In this document: positions 46,825 through 57,081 of the stretch, in pieces
How positions within the stretch are numbered: position 1 is the stretch's first letter
Layout of the letters: each line of letters begins with the position of its first letter
Source: Candidatus Tiddalikarchaeum anstoanum
GTDB taxonomy: Archaea; Nanobdellota; Nanobdellia; Tiddalikarchaeales; Tiddalikarchaeaceae
Direction of reading: 5' to 3'
Assembly: GCA_902385255.1 (NCBI GenBank)
Contig: CABMEV010000005.1
Location: forward strand, 62,001 to 126,000
DNA: 64,000 nt
The notes under the pieces: generated by a model
Database searches by the model: none
The model's input: the letters and a program-made list of their open reading frames with translations, nothing else
What the model was told of the DNA's origin: nothing
Translations under genes and position numbers: made by a program

Positions 46825-47139
46825 CTACTCTGCTTCTTCGTTTGATTCTGCACCTTTTTTCTTTTCATTTTGCTCAGTATTCTTTTCTGTATAAGCAGGT
46901 ACTGCTGTTTTTGAGATTATCATCACGTCGCCTATTGCATTTACTAAACCTTGTGGTATTATAACGCCTTTAGCTGAACTCATTATTTTGGATAGTAATG
47001 AATTATTTGTTGATTTTATCTTCCAGCCGTATACTTTATTGTTTTGTATGAATCCTTCTTCAACTTCTCCGAAGAAGTCTCCAAGTTCCGTGTACACTTT
47101 ACGGCCTTTTGTTTCATTCAGACTTACTAGTTTCACCAT
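46825..47139 (-). CDS. PRC-barrel domain protein
   Basis: A small protein of 104 residues: a PRC beta-barrel (MVKLVSLNETKGRKVYTELGDFFGEVEEG ... GVIIPQGLVNAIGDVMII), then a charged tail (EKNTEQNEKKKG ... EEAE). PRC barrels in archaea occur in RNA-processing and cell-division (CdvA-like) proteins. The start chosen is ATG 47139, where the domain begins; a longer frame to 47181 adds residues that overlap scpB. The 26-base overlap with scpB suggests coupled translation with the condensin subunits. Confidence 0.78.
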   Translation of the reverse strand: MVKLVSLNETKGRKVYTELGDFFGEVEEGFIQNNKVYGWKIKSTNNSLLSKIMSSAKGVIIPQGLVNAIGDVMIISKTAVPAYTEKNTEQNEKKKGAESNEEAE

Positions 47140-47632
47140 GCATATCCTCATCCTCGTCGTTAAATATAAACTTTTCTTCACCTTTCGTTATATTAAAGTA
47201 TTCGAAGAACTTGTCAGAGAGTACGAGCTTGAAAGTCTTCCCGAACGGCTCCAGTTTGATGAAATCGTACTCTTTAAGCTTGTTTATGTGGTCGTAAGCT
47301 TTGTTTCCGCGGATTCGAACAACTTCTCCCTGTGTTATTCCATTCTTCCATGCTACCACGCTTAACGTTTTTATTAATGATTTTGAGAACTCCTGCGGTA
47401 TTAGTTCCGTGACGTTTGAAATGAGGCTCCTGTCTACGCTTAACCTGTAAAGGTCATTATAGTTTATGAGTGTTATAGCACTGTCTCTTTCTTTGTAACC
47501 ATCATTTAATTCTTTCAGGGCTTTTGTTATCTCCTCTTCGGGGACGTTAATCCTCTCGGCTAACTCCTTAATTTTCAGTCCTTCGCTTATTATGAATAAT
47601 AATGCTTCAACCCGCTTCTTAATATTGCTCAT
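47114..47632 (-). CDS. scpB: ScpB, condensin kleisin-interacting subunit
   Basis: A double winged-helix protein that binds the kleisin ScpA in the SMC-ScpAB complex. The first domain begins KKRVEALLFIISEGLKIKELAERI. The second carries ALKTLSVVAW-like sequence (SLIKTLSVVAWKNGITQGEV near 83) with RIRGNKAYDHINKL, typical of ScpB. Length 172 is normal. scpA is 29 bases upstream; SMC itself lies at 53743 on the other strand. Confidence 0.9.
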   Translation of the reverse strand: MSNIKKRVEALLFIISEGLKIKELAERINVPEEEITKALKELNDGYKERDSAITLINYNDLYRLSVDRSLISNVTELIPQEFSKSLIKTLSVVAWKNGITQGEVVRIRGNKAYDHINKLKEYDFIKLEPFGKTFKLVLSDKFFEYFNITKGEEKFIFNDEDEDMHGETSKSE

Positions 47633-47661
47633 ATTTTAACCTTCAATTCGTTGTTTTTATT

Positions 47662-48417
47662 TTAAACTTGTGCTGTTACTATTTCTGGCATCTTTATTGA
47701 AATGTCTCCAAATTGCACTTTCTGGGATATTTCTATTTTTCCGTCATTGCTTAAGTGCAGTAATGGGACGAACGTCCATACTATGTCTTTTTTCTCGTTT
47801 GATGGTACTAATTCTTTGAATAATAATTCTTCCCTTCTTAAGTTTTGGAATGCGTTGACTATGTTATTATATAATTGTTTTATTTTCTCTGTTATGTCCA
47901 CTGCAACTACATCTGCGTGATAGTTCATCTTCTCCTTTAATTCCTGTTTTCTGACATCACGCCTGTCCTGTACTTCTATAGCTTCTCTTAATGCCGCAAC
48001 GAGGTCGTCTACGCTGACTGGCCGCATCCTTTCCCTTGGGGTTCTTAAGTCCACCGTGACGCCTGATTCTTTGAATGATTGTTTCAGTCCGTAATTTTTG
48101 AACTCGCTTACCATGTATTCGACGTCTAAATCTTCAAGGAATTCCTCAAAGTACTCTTCAGGTATGTTTAAGAATTCGTTGACGTTGAATTCATCGCTTT
48201 TCATTTTTAGTAGTATTGCTGATGCGAGGAGGAATTTTCCGCAGAGCTTGAAGTCTATGTGCTCCAATCCCATTACGGCTTCTCTGTACTTGTCTGCTAA
48301 GAATTTGACGTCTATATCCCATGGGTTCACGTTTTCTTTTTTAATTATATCTCTAAGTAGTCCTTCCCATGTTAATTCTCTGCTCATTATGAGCTCGTAT
48401 ATTTTTAGATCGTCCAT
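47662..48417 (-). CDS. scpA: ScpA, condensin kleisin subunit
   Basis: The kleisin that bridges the SMC heads in chromosome compaction and segregation. The N-terminal domain has NPWDIDVKFLADKYREAV near 31-48 and LASAILLKMKSDE near 65, both typical. The C-terminal winged helix ends with HLSNDGKIEISQKVQFGDISI. The 251-residue length fits. It is 39 bases downstream of the Cdc48 gene, so the AAA ATPase and condensin parts are probably on one message. Confidence 0.92.
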   Translation of the reverse strand: MDDLKIYELIMSRELTWEGLLRDIIKKENVNPWDIDVKFLADKYREAVMGLEHIDFKLCGKFLLASAILLKMKSDEFNVNEFLNIPEEYFEEFLEDLDVEYMVSEFKNYGLKQSFKESGVTVDLRTPRERMRPVSVDDLVAALREAIEVQDRRDVRKQELKEKMNYHADVVAVDITEKIKQLYNNIVNAFQNLRREELLFKELVPSNEKKDIVWTFVPLLHLSNDGKIEISQKVQFGDISIKMPEIVTAQV

Positions 48418-48456: not shown

Positions 48457-51273
48457 CTACCCTAAGTAGCTTAATCCCTTCTTTACCTCCTCTTTTGTTA
48501 ATTCTTTCTGGTGCTCTGAAAATCCCTTGTACAATTTGACTTCACTCGGATCTATGCTTGGCTTTGAATTCTTGAGTGCTTTGTCAAAATGCAGTTTCTT
48601 AACTTTGTCGCATTTTATGTCCTCTCTTAGAGCGAGCATCGCTGCTTCTCTGCATAATCCTTCGATATCTGCGCCGCTGTAATTCTCAGTGGCTTTTGCA
48701 AGCTCCTCGATATCAACATCTTTGTCCAACGGCATCCCATGTGTATGCACCTTGAATATTGTCAGCCTTGCTTTCTCATCAGGAGGAGGAACTAGTATTA
48801 ATCTGTCAAGTCTTCCAGGCCTCATCATTGCTGAGTCTACAAGGTCAGGCCTGTTTGTTGCCGCGATTATAATTACATTATTTAACTCCTCAAGCCCGTC
48901 AATCTCTGTTAATAACTGGTTAACAACTTGTTCCGTGACATTATTTCCTGACTCGCCGCCTCTTCTAGGCACTAATGAATCCACTTCATCAAAAAATATT
49001 ATGCAAGGGGCAACTTGTCTTGCTTTTCTGAACGTTTCCCTGACTGCTTTCTCAGATTCTCCAACCCATTTTGATAATAGTTCCGGTCCTTTTATTGAAA
49101 TAAAGTTCATCTCTGTCTCTTTAGCCACTGCTTTTACCAGAAGGGTTTTTCCTGTTCCGGGAGGCCCGTATAATAATATTCCTTTTGGAGGCTTAATTCC
49201 AAGTCTTCTGAAAGATTCCGGATTCTTAACCGGCCATTCAACACTTTCAATAAGCTGCTGCTTTACCTCTTCTAATCCTCCTATATCACTCCAGTGGACG
49301 TTTGGTATCTGCACTAAGACTTCTCTCATTGCGCTCGGCCTCACAATCCTTAATGCGTCCCCAAAGTCATCCTTCATGTTGACCTTGATTTTTTGAAGCA
49401 GTTCCGACGGAACTTTTTCATTCTTATTCCAGTCTATTGAAGGTATAATCCTTCTTATTACAAACATTGCAGCTTCCTTGCATAACGATTCAAGGTCTGC
49501 TCCGACAAAACCAAAAGTCTTATTTGCTAAATTATCCAGGTCTTTGAGTATGCCTTTGCTTCGCACTTCATCATAAAAAGACTTGCTTAATATTGAAAGC
49601 GAGATTAAGTCTGCGATTACATCACGGAGTTCTGATGATAACTTGTTCTCTGTTATTTCAAGGAATTTAATCCTGGCATCCGCGCTTGAGCCTGTCCATA
49701 ATTCTTTGGAATGCTCTATGTCCGCAATGTTTTTTGCAAGCTCATAAATCTTAGCTTTGTTCTTTGAGAAATAATCGCTTATCTTTTTGGATAGTTTCAT
49801 CTCAGCCTGCAATAAGGATATTTTTTTGGAAACATCAGATATTTCCTTTTTCTTTGAATCTATCTTGGAGTTGACCTGGTTTAACTGGTTCACAACCCTG
49901 CCTAATAATGTTTCATCTTTTTTCTCCTTGATTTTTTCAAGGTCGGTTAACCTCTCCTGCAGCGTTTCAAAATCCTCCTTAAGCTCTTCCTCTTTTTTAA
50001 CAGCTAGTTTTAATTCCTCATTTTTTTTCGGGATATCATCCTCAATATATTTGAGCAGCGTGTTAGCAGCTAAATCGCTGTAAAATCCCCCTTCCAACGG
50101 CATGTTACGAGTATGTATCTTAAGTATCTCAAGCCTTCCTGTCTTGTCTGGCACTCCGATTTCTATCTCCCTGTCAAAACGTCCGGGTCGTCTTAGGGCT
50201 GGGTCTAATGCGTTCGGGCGGTTAGTTGCAGCAATAACTATCACTTTACCTCTTGATTTCAATCCGTCCATTAATGCAAGAAGCTGTGCAACAACTCGTC
50301 TTTCTACTTCACCGACGCTTTCCTCTCTCTTGCTTGCTATCGCGTCTATCTCATCTATGAATATTATTGAAGGTGCTTTTTTTTCGGCATCATCGAATAT
50401 TTTACGAAGGTGCTTTTCAGCTTCTCCGACCCATTTGCTCATTATCTCCGGGCCGTTTAGGCTGATAAAGTTGGCATCACTCTCGCTGGCAACTGCTTTT
50501 GCAAGAAGAGTCTTACCTGTTCCAGGAGGTCCGTATAATAAAACTCCTTTTGGAGGCTGAACTCCTAATCTTTCGAAAACTTCTGGGTGGCGCATTGGAA
50601 GCTCCACCATTTCCCTTACTTTTTTTACTTCTTCAGTTAGTCCTCCAATGTCTTCGTAAGTTATCTCAGGCATCTTTTCTTTAATTGTGACAGGCTGGTC
50701 GCTGTATTCAATTTCCGTTAACTCAGTAATTAGTACGTTGCCTTTGGGCGAGACGTCTGATATTACCAATTTAATTTCTTGTCCGCCAAGACCCATGCCG
50801 AAACCGAATAATTCATCTTCGGCCAGCATGTTAAAGATGTCAGATATTGGGTCGCCGACGCCGCTCCTTCGTCTTCTTCCGCTGCCTAACGTTACTATAT
50901 CATCTTTTCTTACAGCTCTCCCTAATAAGTTCATTTTGAAAAACTGAGGATTTGCTTGTATTTTAAAATCAGATGCAGGTGAAACAACCACTTTTTTCGC
51001 TTCGCTGTACTCTGCTTTTCTTACAGTTACTGTTTCTCCAACTCCGCTTTTGCTGTTCCATCTTGTATAACCGTCCATCCTTATTATTCTAAGACCTATA
51101 TCGCGCGGATAACAGCGGTCAATCGTTGCAACAGTCGTCTTATCGCCGATTATTTCTACAGGATCCCCCTTATTTATACCAAGCTCTTTCATGACTTGGG
51201 AATCGATGCGTACCAGCCCTTTTCCTATGTCATCCTGCTGGGCTTCCGCCACTCTTAATTGAATATCACTCAT
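48457..51273 (-). CDS. cdc48: Cdc48/VCP-type AAA+ unfoldase with a large insertion in D1
   Basis: A hexameric protein unfoldase. The N-terminal double-psi barrel domain covers 1-185. D1 has Walker A GPPGTGKT at 248-255 and Walker B IIFIDEID at 303-310. D2 has GPPGTGKT at 703-710 and IIFFDEVD at 758-765. Archaeal Cdc48 is usually 730-810 residues; this one is 938. The excess lies between RNMPL (about 393) and [14 protein letters not shown] (from 581), the border between the large and small parts of D1. About 175 residues rich in Lys/Glu heptads predict coiled coils. The small part of D1 is otherwise complete. It overlaps the regulator gene upstream by eight bases. Confidence 0.95.
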
Positions 51274-51571
51274 TATTATTACCTCCCTGAAATGTAAAAA
51301 CTATCTTCCTTACAATTACTATAGGCTTTTTTGTTCTCCCCTCGCCATGGAAACTTATAATATGGTTTTTCTGAAGGAGCACTAAATCTTCAAAAACGTT
51401 CTTCACGTTCCTGTCTAGAACCCTTGAGAGCTCGCGGATACTATGCGGCTCCTCTTTCATAATTACTTTAATCATTTCTATACGCTTCTCAGTCAGGCAT
51501 TCAAGTATGCTAAACTGGTCGAGCATTTTTTTCTTTTCCTTCTCAAATTCCTCAAAAAAAGCCTCAATCAT
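51266..51571 (-). CDS. Winged-helix transcription regulator
   Basis: A 101-residue DNA-binding protein. A short helical start ([16 protein letters not shown]) precedes a winged helix: [30 protein letters not shown], then the recognition helix [15 protein letters not shown], and a wing ([15 protein letters not shown]). It resembles archaeal HVO_A0114-type regulators. Start chosen at ATG 51571, 26 bases from the TATA box, implying a leaderless message; TTG at 51589 would lie upstream of the predicted transcript start. It is the first gene of the Cdc48 cluster and may autoregulate through the inverted repeat at 51572-51628. Confidence 0.82.
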
Positions 51572-51628
51572 TGTTGGTATAGAATACAAACAATAAGTAT
51601 TTATAAATGTTGTGCTGAAATACCAACA
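51572..51628 (-). promoter_or_regulatory. Promoter with a 9-bp inverted repeat around the TATA box (likely operator)
   Basis: A perfect inverted repeat TGTTGGTAT (51572-51580) and ATACCAACA (51620-51628) is centred at 51600. A TATA box, minus-strand ATTTATAAATA at 51598-51608, sits in the middle. One arm overlaps the predicted transcript start beside the ATG, and the other lies upstream of the TATA box. A dimeric regulator bound to the arms would block TBP or polymerase. The adjacent winged-helix gene is the obvious candidate; this link is inferred. Confidence 0.6.
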
Positions 51629-53742: not shown

Positions 53743-56700
53743 ATGGTCCGCATAAATAAACTAATACTTGAAAACTTCAAGAGTTTCGGCGGGAAAACAG
53801 AATTAAAATTCATGGACAAATTAAACATAATTATAGGCCCTAACGGCAGCGGAAAAAGCAATATTGGAGAAAGCATAAGTTTCGTATTAGGTATGATGAG
53901 CAAAAAAGGGCTCAGGACTGAAAAATTCTCAGATATAATATTTAACGGCGGAAAAAGAGGGACAGCCGCAAAAAGCGCAACAGTAAAAATAGTATTCTCA
54001 AATGAGGACAAAGTCTTCCCTGTTGAGGAGGATTTTATAGAAATATCACGTAAAGTTGACGTCGACAGCGAGGGAGAGTACAGGATTAACGGAAAGAAGA
54101 CTACAAGAAATGAGATATTGAACGTGCTGGACTATGCAGGACTCAACCCTGAAGGTTTTAACATGATTATGCAGGGGAGCATAGCGAAATTCGTTGATAT
54201 GTCAACCCTGGAAAGAAGGGGAATAATCGAAGAAGTAAGCGGTATAGCAACTTATGAGGAGAAGAAAGAAAAAACGCTCGGAGAGCTTGAAAAAGTAAAA
54301 GAGAAAATCAAGGAGACCCATATCATATTAAAAGAGCGCGAAAAACACCTCGAAGAGATAAAGAAAGAAAAACAGCTGGCTGAAAAATTCCAGAATACAA
54401 AACAACTGCTTAAGGTTACAAAAGGCCAATTGGTTAATAAGCAGATAAAAGAGAAGGAAGAGGAGTCGCTTAATATCCAGAAAAAGATTGAAGACGGAAA
54501 AGAGAGGATTACCAAAAACCAGGGCGACATCATAACCACTGAACAGAAGATTAAGATAATAAAGGAAGAAATAGACGCGTTAAATAAAAACTTGGGAAGC
54601 CAGGGTGCGCAAAAACAAAAAGAGCTGGAAGACAAAATAGCCTCACTTAAAACTGAAACTCATAATACTGAAATCACAATTAAAAGCCACACTAATGAGA
54701 TTGAGAGAATTAAAGACCGTGAAGCCCAGGTTATTAAGAATCTTTTAGATTATGACTCTGAAACTTCCAAGTTGAAAAAAGAGATAACTGATTATGATGA
54801 GAAGCTTAAATCACTAACTGAGGAAGTAAGCAAGTTAAAGGAAAATGCAAGCAGCAAAAGGGAAGTTAACTATTTCGAATTAAAACAGAGAATAAATGAA
54901 GTTAAGGATAATTTGCTGAACTTAAGAAGCGAACAGGAGAGTCTCATACGCAAACAGGAAAGTTTTGAGAATTTCAAGGATTTGCAGGAAGAGTTTGAGC
55001 AGAAGAAAGCGTTGATGGATGATGTTCTTAAAAAATTAGAAAACGAGATGAATTTAAACAGCGAGCTGGCATTGAAGGTTGACCAGGTTAATAATAAGAT
55101 AACGTCAATAATCCAGACTCTGGAAAGGTTAAAGGCGCAGAAGAATGTCAGCATTGAAACCGCCGGAGAAGGTGTAAAGCAGCTTCTTGAGCAGAATATT
55201 CCCGGAGTTCAGGGAACAGTTGCCCAGTTAATAAAAGTCAACAAGGAATACGAACTGCCAATCCGCGTAGCCGCCGGAAACAGGCTGTTAAACGTAGTGG
55301 TTGATACTGAGGATACCGCCAAGAAATGCATAGATTTCCTGAAGAATAACAGGTTAGGAGTCATAACATTCCTTCCTATGAATAAGATAAAGCCATCCCC
55401 TCTCCCTGACGGATTCAGGATGACTCAGGGAGTTGTCGAGTTTGCAATAAACCTTGTTGATTTTAACAATAAATACCAGAATATTTTTGAATATATATTC
55501 AGGGATACTTTGGTCGTTCAGGAGTTTGAGACTGCAAAGAAGATTGGTATTGGAAAAATCAGGATGGTTACTGTCCAGGGAGACCTGATAGAGACGAGCG
55601 GTGCAATAACAGGCGGTTTCCGCGGAGAAAAAAGCCCGCTTACTCTGGCGAGCGCTGAGAATGAAGAGAAGATAGTTTCATTAGAGGAGGATCTCGCAAA
55701 GAATCAGGAAATTTATACCCGAATTAAAACGAGCAAGGAAGAGAATGATAAAAATATCATGAGTTTAAGGGAGAAGAGGGCGGGACTTGATGCTGAAATA
55801 AAGAACGTGAGTTCATTAATTGAAGACTTGAAAAGCAAGAGCGAAGGCTTTGATATAAGAAGACTCGAGAAAGTAAGATTGGACACTGACAAGTACAGTT
55901 CTGAACTTTCTGAGAAAGAGAAACAAATACAAGACTTTGAGAAGACATTCAGCAAGGACGCTTTTGAAAAAACCCAGAAAGTTATGCAGAACATAGAATC
56001 TGAAATAAACAGCCTGACTGTGAACAAAGGCATAAAGTCATCAAGGCTCAAACAAATAGTAGAAAAAGATATTGTAGAATTGACAAAGATTAAGAAAGAC
56101 CTTGAAAAACAAAGATTAAGCTTCTCTGACGAGATTAGCAAACTTAAGCAGTCGCTTGAGAATATGAATTCACAATTGAAAACTTACGAGTCTGACGAGA
56201 AATCATTCCATAATAAACTTAAGGAGAATTATGAAAAAAGGGACAAGAATGAGGAGGAAAAAAGGAACCTGTTAATCAAGATAGAAGAGAAGAAGATGCA
56301 CATAAAAGATGAAGAGGACAAGATTAACAATTTGACTTTATTAATCGCTGAAGTGCACTCGAAGAGCGAAGGATTAAGGCTTAAATTTGAAGAGTATAAG
56401 AGCCTGGAACTCCCTGAAACCAAAAAGAGCGAAAAGGACCTTGAGCAGGAAGTGTTCCTTCTTGAGAAGAAACTTGAAACTTTCGGAAACGTTAACCTGA
56501 AATCATTGGATGTTTACAAAATAGTTGAAGAGGAATATAATGAAGTCAAAACGAAGATGTCACAGTTAGAAGGCGATAGTAATTCTATAATTTCAACAAT
56601 TGACGAGATTGAAAAGAAGAAGAAAGGGACTTTCATGGAAGTGTTTAATGAAATACGCAATAATTTCCAGAGAATCTTCGGTATAATAAGCCCTGGTGGA

Positions 56701-57081
56701 ATAGCTGACTTAATCGTTGAAAACCCTGACAGCCCTTTCGAATCAGGGATTGATATCAAGGCAAGACCGAAAGGCAAAAAGACGCTTACGCTAAAAAGCA
56801 TGAGCGGAGGAGAGAAGACAATAACAGCTTTAAGCTTCATATTTGCAATCCAGGAATATGACCCTGCACCTTTCTACATATTTGATGAGGTTGACGCAGC
56901 GCTTGATAAAGAGAATGCTACAAAACTTGCAAAGCTTGCAAAACAGTACAGTGAGAAGGCGCAGTTTTTGCTAATCAGCCATAATGATAATGTTATCAGC
57001 GAGGCGGATTACTTATATGGTGTCAGTATGACTCCTGACGGTATAAGCAAGGTTGTAACGCTGAAACTCCCTGAACAATAA
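53743..57081 (+). CDS. smc: SMC chromosome condensin ATPase
   Basis: The core ATPase of archaeal condensin. Walker A GPNGSGKSN is near 32-40. Two long coiled coils (about 165-480 and 660-950) flank a hinge (GVQGTVAQLIKVN through the RGEKSPL region, near 485-645). The ABC signature MSGGEKTITALS is near 1020, Walker B FYIFDEVDAALDKEN near 1044, and the D-loop is complete. Length 1112 is standard. Its partners ScpA and ScpB are in the opposite-strand Cdc48 cluster about 6 kb away, so the complex is encoded in two transcription units. Confidence 0.96.
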   Translation: MVRINKLILENFKSFGGKTELKFMDKLNIIIGPNGSGKSNIGESISFVLGMMSKKGLRTEKFSDIIFNGGKRGTAAKSATVKIVFSNEDKVFPVEEDFIEISRKVDVDSEGEYRINGKKTTRNEILNVLDYAGLNPEGFNMIMQGSIAKFVDMSTLERRGIIEEVSGIATYEEKKEKTLGELEKVKEKIKETHIILKEREKHLEEIKKEKQLAEKFQNTKQLLKVTKGQLVNKQIKEKEEESLNIQKKIEDGKERITKNQGDIITTEQKIKIIKEEIDALNKNLGSQGAQKQKELEDKIASLKTETHNTEITIKSHTNEIERIKDREAQVIKNLLDYDSETSKLKKEITDYDEKLKSLTEEVSKLKENASSKREVNYFELKQRINEVKDNLLNLRSEQESLIRKQESFENFKDLQEEFEQKKALMDDVLKKLENEMNLNSELALKVDQVNNKITSIIQTLERLKAQKNVSIETAGEGVKQLLEQNIPGVQGTVAQLIKVNKEYELPIRVAAGNRLLNVVVDTEDTAKKCIDFLKNNRLGVITFLPMNKIKPSPLPDGFRMTQGVVEFAINLVDFNNKYQNIFEYIFRDTLVVQEFETAKKIGIGKIRMVTVQGDLIETSGAITGGFRGEKSPLTLASAENEEKIVSLEEDLAKNQEIYTRIKTSKEENDKNIMSLREKRAGLDAEIKNVSSLIEDLKSKSEGFDIRRLEKVRLDTDKYSSELSEKEKQIQDFEKTFSKDAFEKTQKVMQNIESEINSLTVNKGIKSSRLKQIVEKDIVELTKIKKDLEKQRLSFSDEISKLKQSLENMNSQLKTYESDEKSFHNKLKENYEKRDKNEEEKRNLLIKIEEKKMHIKDEEDKINNLTLLIAEVHSKSEGLRLKFEEYKSLELPETKKSEKDLEQEVFLLEKKLETFGNVNLKSLDVYKIVEEEYNEVKTKMSQLEGDSNSIISTIDEIEKKKKGTFMEVFNEIRNNFQRIFGIISPGGIADLIVENPDSPFESGIDIKARPKGKKTLTLKSMSGGEKTITALSFIFAIQEYDPAPFYIFDEVDAALDKENATKLAKLAKQYSEKAQFLLISHNDNVISEADYLYGVSMTPDGISKVVTLKLPEQ

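Follow-up and report, generated by a model that had tools for sequence, protein, structure and literature searches.

A predicted coiled-coil arm in the D1 lid of an archaeal Cdc48, present or absent among close relatives

Control of Cdc48/p97 is exerted by its N-domains, to which eukaryotes add many separate adaptors; to our knowledge, little is known about the control of archaeal Cdc48. Coiled coils occur on other ATPases at various sites: the proteasomal ATPase Mpa/ARC carries a Pup-capturing coiled coil, which is N-terminal in Mpa, a coiled-coil insert lies in the D2 lid of MJ1156 from Methanocaldococcus, and the M-domain of ClpB follows a later lid helix. The arm that we describe here, in the Cdc48 of Candidatus Tiddalikarchaeum anstoanum, lies in the D1 lid, between the first and second lid helices. 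As described in the accessible part of PMC4023160, the M-domain of ClpB/Hsp104 and ClpC is likewise a long coiled coil in the small subdomain of the first AAA module. In p97, residue N387 of D1 lies at the NTD-D1 interface, facing R155; mutants at this interface shift the up/down equilibrium of the N-domain, and the helices H1 and H2 of the adaptor UBXD1 are bound there (PMC5102582, available in part).

No published description of such an arm was found by title or by the start of the abstract among the matches listed, and the words 'insertion' and 'coiled' do not occur in the available portion of the main text of PMC5070193. The arm is also a warning that Cdc48 varies more among archaea than one would expect from VAT as the model.

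The cdc48 gene and the site of the arm

The window, i.e. the whole stretch of 64,000 nucleotides that was analysed, belongs to a genome of 1.16 Mb in 13 contigs (94% complete), and contains the sole CDC48_N-bearing gene detected in that genome. The features of the gene are as follows.

48457..51273, reverse strand: cdc48 gene, 938 aa, no internal stops
51010..51261, reverse strand: N-domain part 1 (CDC48_N, residues 5-88), by domain match
50686..50958, reverse strand: N-domain part 2 (CDC48_2, residues 106-196), by domain match
50155..50544, reverse strand: D1 AAA core (residues 244-373) with Walker A at 248-255, by domain and motif matches
50104..50106, reverse strand: N390, equivalent of p97 N387 (NTD-D1 interface, opposite R155), by alignment ends and the accessible part of PMC5102582
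49543..50094, reverse strand: inserted arm, residues 394-577 (184 aa), by PDB alignment and comparison of class loci
49438..49542, reverse strand: remainder of the D1 lid (residues 578-612), by PDB alignment and AlphaFold2 model
48571..49317, reverse strand: D2 AAA module (residues 653-901) with Walker A at 703-710, by motifs and NCBIfam match
48460..48468, reverse strand: C-terminal YLG, read from the sequence

The protein scored 1035 bits against the NCBIfam model TIGR01243 CDC48 (cut-off 802.65) over residues 4-925, and its body matched p97, VAT and NVL structures in a structure search. It shares with VAT and archaeal Cdc48 the N-D1-D2 architecture, with Walker A motifs at residues 248 and 703, Walker B-type motifs at 305 and 760 and the aromatic pore loop SKWVGE at 279 and 734, and both ATPase sites therefore look intact, in agreement with the initial annotation. 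It differs in having 184 residues, versus about 8 in VAT, in the loop that joins the first two helices of the D1 lid. A short loop is no formal defining feature of the Cdc48/VAT family, and the long-loop protein is treated here as a variant inside it. The C-terminus reads Y-[F/L/M/V/Y]-G in 43 of the 45 class loci with readable ends (L169-L217; the exceptions are L205 and L215), and such ends recall the HbYX/YPhi tails described in the available part of PMC8907193, suggesting that YLG may serve as a proteasome-docking tail.

The boundaries of the arm were taken from phmmer alignments to PDB chains, in which the query lacked Met1 and the program's residue numbers are one lower than those given here. 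The best matches were the VAT structures 5g4f, 5g4g and 5vc7. The VAT alignment came in two pieces, breaking at L393 and restarting at 577, with 8 VAT residues between them; in the p97 alignment, the first piece ended at chain position 390 (3hu1) and the second started at 395 (806-aa chains). These breakpoints define the insert as residues 394-577, in the loop joining the first and second helices of the D1 small subdomain. The long D1 insertion noticed in the initial annotation is thus real and its site was correctly placed, but the extent of about 175 residues at 49534-50073 has to be replaced by 184 residues at 49543-50094. Because the stretch H387-T-R-N390-M-P-L393 aligns with p97 up to position 390, N390 is the equivalent of p97 N387, and, given the p97 mutant data, the root of the arm therefore lies three residues from a control point of p97.

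Predicted fold of the arm and its relation to known coiled coils

An AlphaFold2 model of full-length Cdc48 (28 aligned sequences; mean pLDDT 80.9, pTM 0.51) has helices at residues 399-450 and 454-525, forming a hairpin, followed by helices at 533-558 and 565-585, the last of which continues into the normal D1 lid helix. Its pTM of 0.51 is too low to fix the direction of the arm relative to the ring. The model of the arm and lid alone (11 sequences; mean pLDDT 80.1, pTM 0.66) has the same hairpin with a small break, with pLDDT values of 83-94 in the hairpin blocks, except for 73 at the turn; the base is less certain (pLDDT 50-89), with three helices versus two in the full-length model. The arm is accordingly predicted to be a two-helix coiled-coil hairpin on a helical base, composed of the following parts.

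49924..50079, reverse strand: outgoing coil helix, residues 399-450 (AlphaFold2, full-length and arm alone)
49882..49923, reverse strand: hairpin turn and hydrophobic start of the return helix, residues 451-464 (AlphaFold2 and arm alignment)
49699..49914, reverse strand: return coil helix, residues 454-525 (AlphaFold2)
49600..49677, reverse strand: base helix, residues 533-558, a single helix in the full-length model and broken up when the arm is modelled alone; relatives without the coil retain the segment (AlphaFold2 and homologues)
49543..49581, reverse strand: last base helix, residues 565-577, continuing into the D1 lid helix (AlphaFold2)

The Lys/Glu-rich heptad character noted earlier was borne out: Lys and Glu make up 28% of the arm, and of 200 shuffled sequences, 1 equalled it in hydrophobic heptad periodicity (0-9 of 200 across the 17 arms tested). 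Of the two coils proposed at residues 405-500 and 530-575, the coiled-coil nature stands, whereas the ranges give way to the hairpin (399-450 and 454-525) and the base helices (533-585) of the model.

Searches for known relatives yielded no specific link. No convincing domain was found in the arm among the best 25 of 30 Pfam matches with E up to 10, nor within the arm among the best 25 of 55 NCBIfam matches of the whole protein. The sequence search of PDB returned nothing convincing; its best match, the SNAPIN homologue 9tqb (E 0.0027), is read as coiled-coil composition. With the arm model alone, Foldseek gave no match at E <= 0.001 among the best 50 of 792 with E up to 10, and the best 50 matches of VIA-align were generic antiparallel coiled coils, prefoldin and Rad50 among them (Z about 10-11), a likeness that may reflect only the common arrangement of helical models.

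The initial annotation had compared the arm with the ClpB M-domain, and this comparison holds at most as an analogy, since the Pfam, PDB sequence and fold searches revealed no link that would indicate descent. A coiled coil in the small subdomain of D1 is common to both as an arrangement. However, the insertion points appear to differ, the arm is modelled as one hairpin with base helices on a classic Cdc48-family ATPase, ClpB was absent among the best 50 matches of each arm fold search, and nothing in the genome, and therefore nothing in this Cdc48, matched the ClpB-type second AAA module (PF10431) at E 0.001. The protein is thus not a ClpB family member, and by these searches its arm would not be an M-domain by descent, although the arm could work like one.

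Distribution, variation and selection

A profile of 19 arms was run over the 378 genomes of the class and matched 44 of them. We kept 22 genomes at E <= 1.5e-12, the next genome being at 4.4e-6; the other 22 matches look like other coiled coils and were dropped by this gap in E and by frame length, as a group. The profile missed the arms of G211 and G317, in the class sample, which were recognised in the retrieved genes by site, length and composition. The arm is therefore present in at least 24 of the 378 genomes, a lower bound, spread over 14 families. Inserts of 30-100 aa (G145, G019, G363 and G348) were left out of the arm count. In another census, G111, G261 and G071 were false matches, being other proteins by their frames. 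Of the 49 class loci that were retrieved, the long arm (124-252 aa) is present in 21, the canonical loop of 11-12 residues in 24 and an insert between these (30, 88 and 100 aa) in three, with no read-out for the remaining one.

Outside the class, the arm was found in 10 of the 185 genomes of the order containing the Methanoperedens genome G378. In a set of 80 named loci, at least six have a long arm, namely Woesearchaeota/Nanoarchaeota MAGs (L056-L060) and Methanoperedens sp. MnB_21 (L105), and at least four have, at the same D1 site, an insert of 70-79 aa versus the 184 aa seen here (L068, L070, L079 and L130: Thermococcus, Archaeoglobaceae twice and Aenigmatarchaeota); loci without a read-out are excluded from both counts. 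The 70-79 aa insert is possibly a short form of the same element. Whether all archaeal Cdc48 proteins carry the arm had been raised as a check, and these counts identify it as no general archaeal trait. Nor is it a trait of the lineage of the window genome, as had been supposed: it is present in other families and in Methanoperedens relatives, and absent from the same-family genomes G001, G002 and G003, which have a 12-residue loop and 89-91% identity over the 190 residues before the arm site. One genus (g67) is itself mixed, with the arm in G087, G132 and G364 and absent from G120. Another genome of the arm-less relative set, G004, had no Cdc48 match at E 1e-100. In G063 (L009, L037), the cdc48 frame of an arm carrier is broken by a TGA within the arm, reflecting either a pseudogene or an assembly error.

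On a tree of the arm-free body (74 rows, 27 with arm), the arm state changes at least 19 times, and at least 12 of these changes are forced by well-supported branches; the tree was built by a quick method, with no bootstrap, and has long branches for L188, L204 and the bodies cut around the intein (L211). Shuffled arm labels gave a mean of 22.0 changes, and 50 of 500 shuffles were as low as 19, so that the arm is close to randomly scattered over this sample and its labels cluster only weakly on the body tree. Since the canonical loop is exact in most of the arm-less proteins, we infer that arm and 12-residue loop replace each other by allele exchange and not by ragged deletion. Import of the arm together with its flanks was considered and rejected: between G000 and its arm-less relatives, identity is high up to both arm edges. 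These flank identities reveal no donor tract, and the exchange is thus something that we infer from the loop of 12 residues being restored.

The arm evolves much faster than the body, with identities of 33% versus 93% between G090 and L056 and of about 37% versus 87% in family f36. It is nevertheless under purifying selection in the two least saturated of the eight pairs analysed by the Nei-Gojobori method: in G364/G132 (dS about 1), dN/dS is 0.11 for the arm and 0.02 and 0.04 for the body, and in L059/G352 (dS about 0.2), it is 0.42 for the arm and 0.06 for the body. The remaining arm values (0.25-0.45 or undefined) were not used, dS being saturated, and neither was the upstream-body comparison of L059/G352, which was spoiled, probably by the L211 intein.

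Homologous arms range from about 113 to 254 aa. The coil is absent from some of them (124-125 aa in G090 and G055; 113 aa in G419 and G421) and is therefore dispensable. In the ten arms from the Methanoperedens order, five keep the turn motif of the class (ESFLQRILGTI beside DSFLADLLAKI, for instance) and two have lost the whole coil (113 aa). Among the 19 aligned arms, the hairpin turn is hydrophobic at column 117 in all 16 that have the segment, at column 120 in 15 of 16 and at column 124 in 16 of 17. Across phyla, the tip ranks about sixth among windows of 11 columns in conservation, and the G317 arm lies outside the tip pattern. Arms of f68 (L042 and L043) have a tandem internal duplication (KKIAEKNSKISE..EIKQLN) in the coil.

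Inteins were found in other genes of the class: one with a splicing domain and LAGLIDADG in the D2 ATPase of the arm-bearing Cdc48 of G087 (L058:2500-4400), one at a second site, in D1 of the arm-bearing Cdc48 of G352 (L211:375-5045; 1557-aa frame), and one in an AAA protein of G028 (L216).

Possible roles of the arm and its cellular setting

The window genome encodes DnaK and two 20S proteasome genes. It has no PAN match over the cut-off, and a 460-aa AAA protein of unclear kind reached 167.5 bits to the PAN model (cut-off 500). These gene searches, which for PAN and the proteasome covered the window genome alone, thus found in it no clear unfoldase of the Cdc48/PAN type for the 20S proteasome other than Cdc48. 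Some archaea are without PAN, and archaeal Cdc48 is able to bind and serve the 20S core, according to the part of PMC4192671 that was available.

We assign an even chance to our preferred reading, in which the insert is a genuine, folded element that acts in cis on the N-domain side of Cdc48, as a regulatory or docking arm. Its position, its homology across lineages, its coming and going and, in two pairs, the purifying selection on it are results of the analysis, its fold is a prediction, and contact with the N-domain, binding of a partner and an effect on activity are proposals. The root of the arm near the N387 equivalent, the confident hairpin model, the homologous arms in a second order, the constraint in two pairs, the hydrophobic turn and the gene set of the window genome speak for this reading. 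The uncertain direction of the arm and fold of its base, the loss of the coil in some homologues, the low arm identity, the modest rank of the tip across phyla, the lack of a gene that tracks the arm and the 460-aa AAA protein speak against it. The helical base would be seated in the D1 lid loop bordering the N-domain/D1 interface, and the two-helix coiled coil would project from it by roughly 80 A (52 residues at 1.5 A). Most likely, the base would contact the N-domain and bias its up/down position, thereby influencing the ATPase activity of D1 and the access of substrates, and the coil with its hydrophobic tip would grip a partner, a class of substrates or an adjacent arm. Because no other clear unfoldase of this type was found there, the arm would serve Cdc48 as an adaptor and a brake built into the enzyme. 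Helices acting at the NTD-D1 interface, the site of N387, would be shared with UBXD1 (PMC5102582, same part); UBXD1 differs as a separate eukaryotic cofactor, whereas the arm helices would belong to Cdc48 itself. The patchy presence of the arm suggests a built-in regulator or docking arm that can be swapped. A more detailed version, which we offer tentatively as one possibility, is that of a cis-encoded adaptor arm, lost, regained or exchanged as an allele (arm or 12-residue loop), which would tune the N-domain position and partner choice of Cdc48 in a cell without detected PAN or ClpB, as an independent solution to the tasks of the ClpB M-domain and the p97 adaptors.

The arm could instead be a tolerated, weakly constrained expansion, a coiled coil grown in a permissive lid loop and varying freely with no specific role. 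The spread of arm lengths, the low arm identity, the coil deletions and the f68 duplication all agree with this, as does the behaviour of the site as a hot spot with graded insert lengths (12, 24, 30, 70-79, 85, 88 and 100 aa). However, dN/dS is below 1 in the two least saturated pairs, base and coil are homologous in two phyla, the heptad pattern exceeds shuffles in the arms tested, and the 49 class loci mostly have either the canonical loop or the long arm. We consider such an expansion rather unlikely, and its strictly lineage-specific form, offered as an alternative in the initial annotation, is hard to square with the purifying selection and with the recurrence of the arm in two phyla. 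The tip could also mediate ring-to-ring or neighbour assembly and thereby store inactive Cdc48, in the manner of ClpC, whose coiled coils give head-to-head assembly according to the title of PMC5699869; 16 of the 19 aligned arms begin the return helix, at the hairpin turn, with a hydrophobic stretch of low charge, which would suit this role, but the tip is missing or misfitting in several homologues, which makes it quite improbable. That the arm is an artefact or mobile element, arising from an intein, a frameshift or a chimeric assembly, has a negligible chance: inteins do occur elsewhere in Cdc48 genes of the class, and the Pfam search detects those of L058, L211 and L216 with the same library, yet no intein domain was found in the arm among the 25 of 30 matches listed (E up to 10), no intein-type junction residues were seen by eye, the frame is open, and the same arm recurs in many separate assemblies.

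A role like that of the M-domain, in which the arms would belt the D1 ring and repress the motor until released by DnaK, would make this Cdc48 a disaggregase where ClpB is missing. Besides the shared location (PMC4023160, same part), this would agree with the window genome, in which DnaK is present and the ClpB_D2-small domain (PF10431) has no match; in the proposed check for an absence of both chaperones, ClpB was thus not detected whereas DnaK was. DnaK is also enriched in arm genomes (22/24 versus 177/354 others; Fisher p 6e-5, uncorrected for kinship), but the association becomes marginal once the genomes are restricted to a completeness of at least 90% and a contamination of at most 5% (16/17 versus 122/174; p 0.044, likewise uncorrected). 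No DnaK match was found in G177 and G255, which carry the arm, whereas the arm-less G001-G003 have DnaK; the arm-less relatives were retrieved mostly from the DnaK-positive list, so this set is unfit for testing DnaK against the arm. Over the 24 arm genomes of the class plus G378, PF10431 exceeds its cut-off in four: G378 itself has an 894-aa ClpB-type protein (98 bits) alongside its arm, and in three arm genomes of f15 a 701-aa protein matches weakly (32-34 bits). Together with the arms that lack the coil and the single modelled hairpin, as opposed to the two-bladed propeller with motifs 1 and 2 described for ClpB, these observations make the role unlikely. Under the preferred reading of a cis-acting regulatory or docking arm, Hsp70 docking is possible, as DnaK is present in the window genome, and is one candidate among several.

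The arm lies inside the enzyme at an interface disturbed by human disease mutations, and its presence or absence among close relatives constitutes a natural experiment. The finding is of real interest because an arm that is optional among close relatives is directly testable, and the comparison of arm and 12-residue loop bears on whether N-domain control can be wired in cis.

Directly upstream of cdc48, several families have a conserved gene of 135-170 aa (L056:4054-4563, L057:4353-4778 and L060:4342-4746), which we take to be SecB-like; three members had no Pfam SecB match and one had no NCBIfam match. It was rejected as a partner of the arm, as it occurs with and without the arm and has no match in the window, and the comparison of this neighbour across families yielded no partner gene tracking arm presence. 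In the window, cdc48 is followed directly, on its own strand, by ScpA and ScpB genes (47114-48417), and a 1112-aa frame, Smc-like by eye, lies at 53743-57081 on the strand opposite to cdc48. A 107-aa protein matching PF25212 HVO_A0114 (71 bits) is encoded at 51266-51589, overlapping the start of cdc48 by 8 bases, and its gene may be co-transcribed with cdc48.
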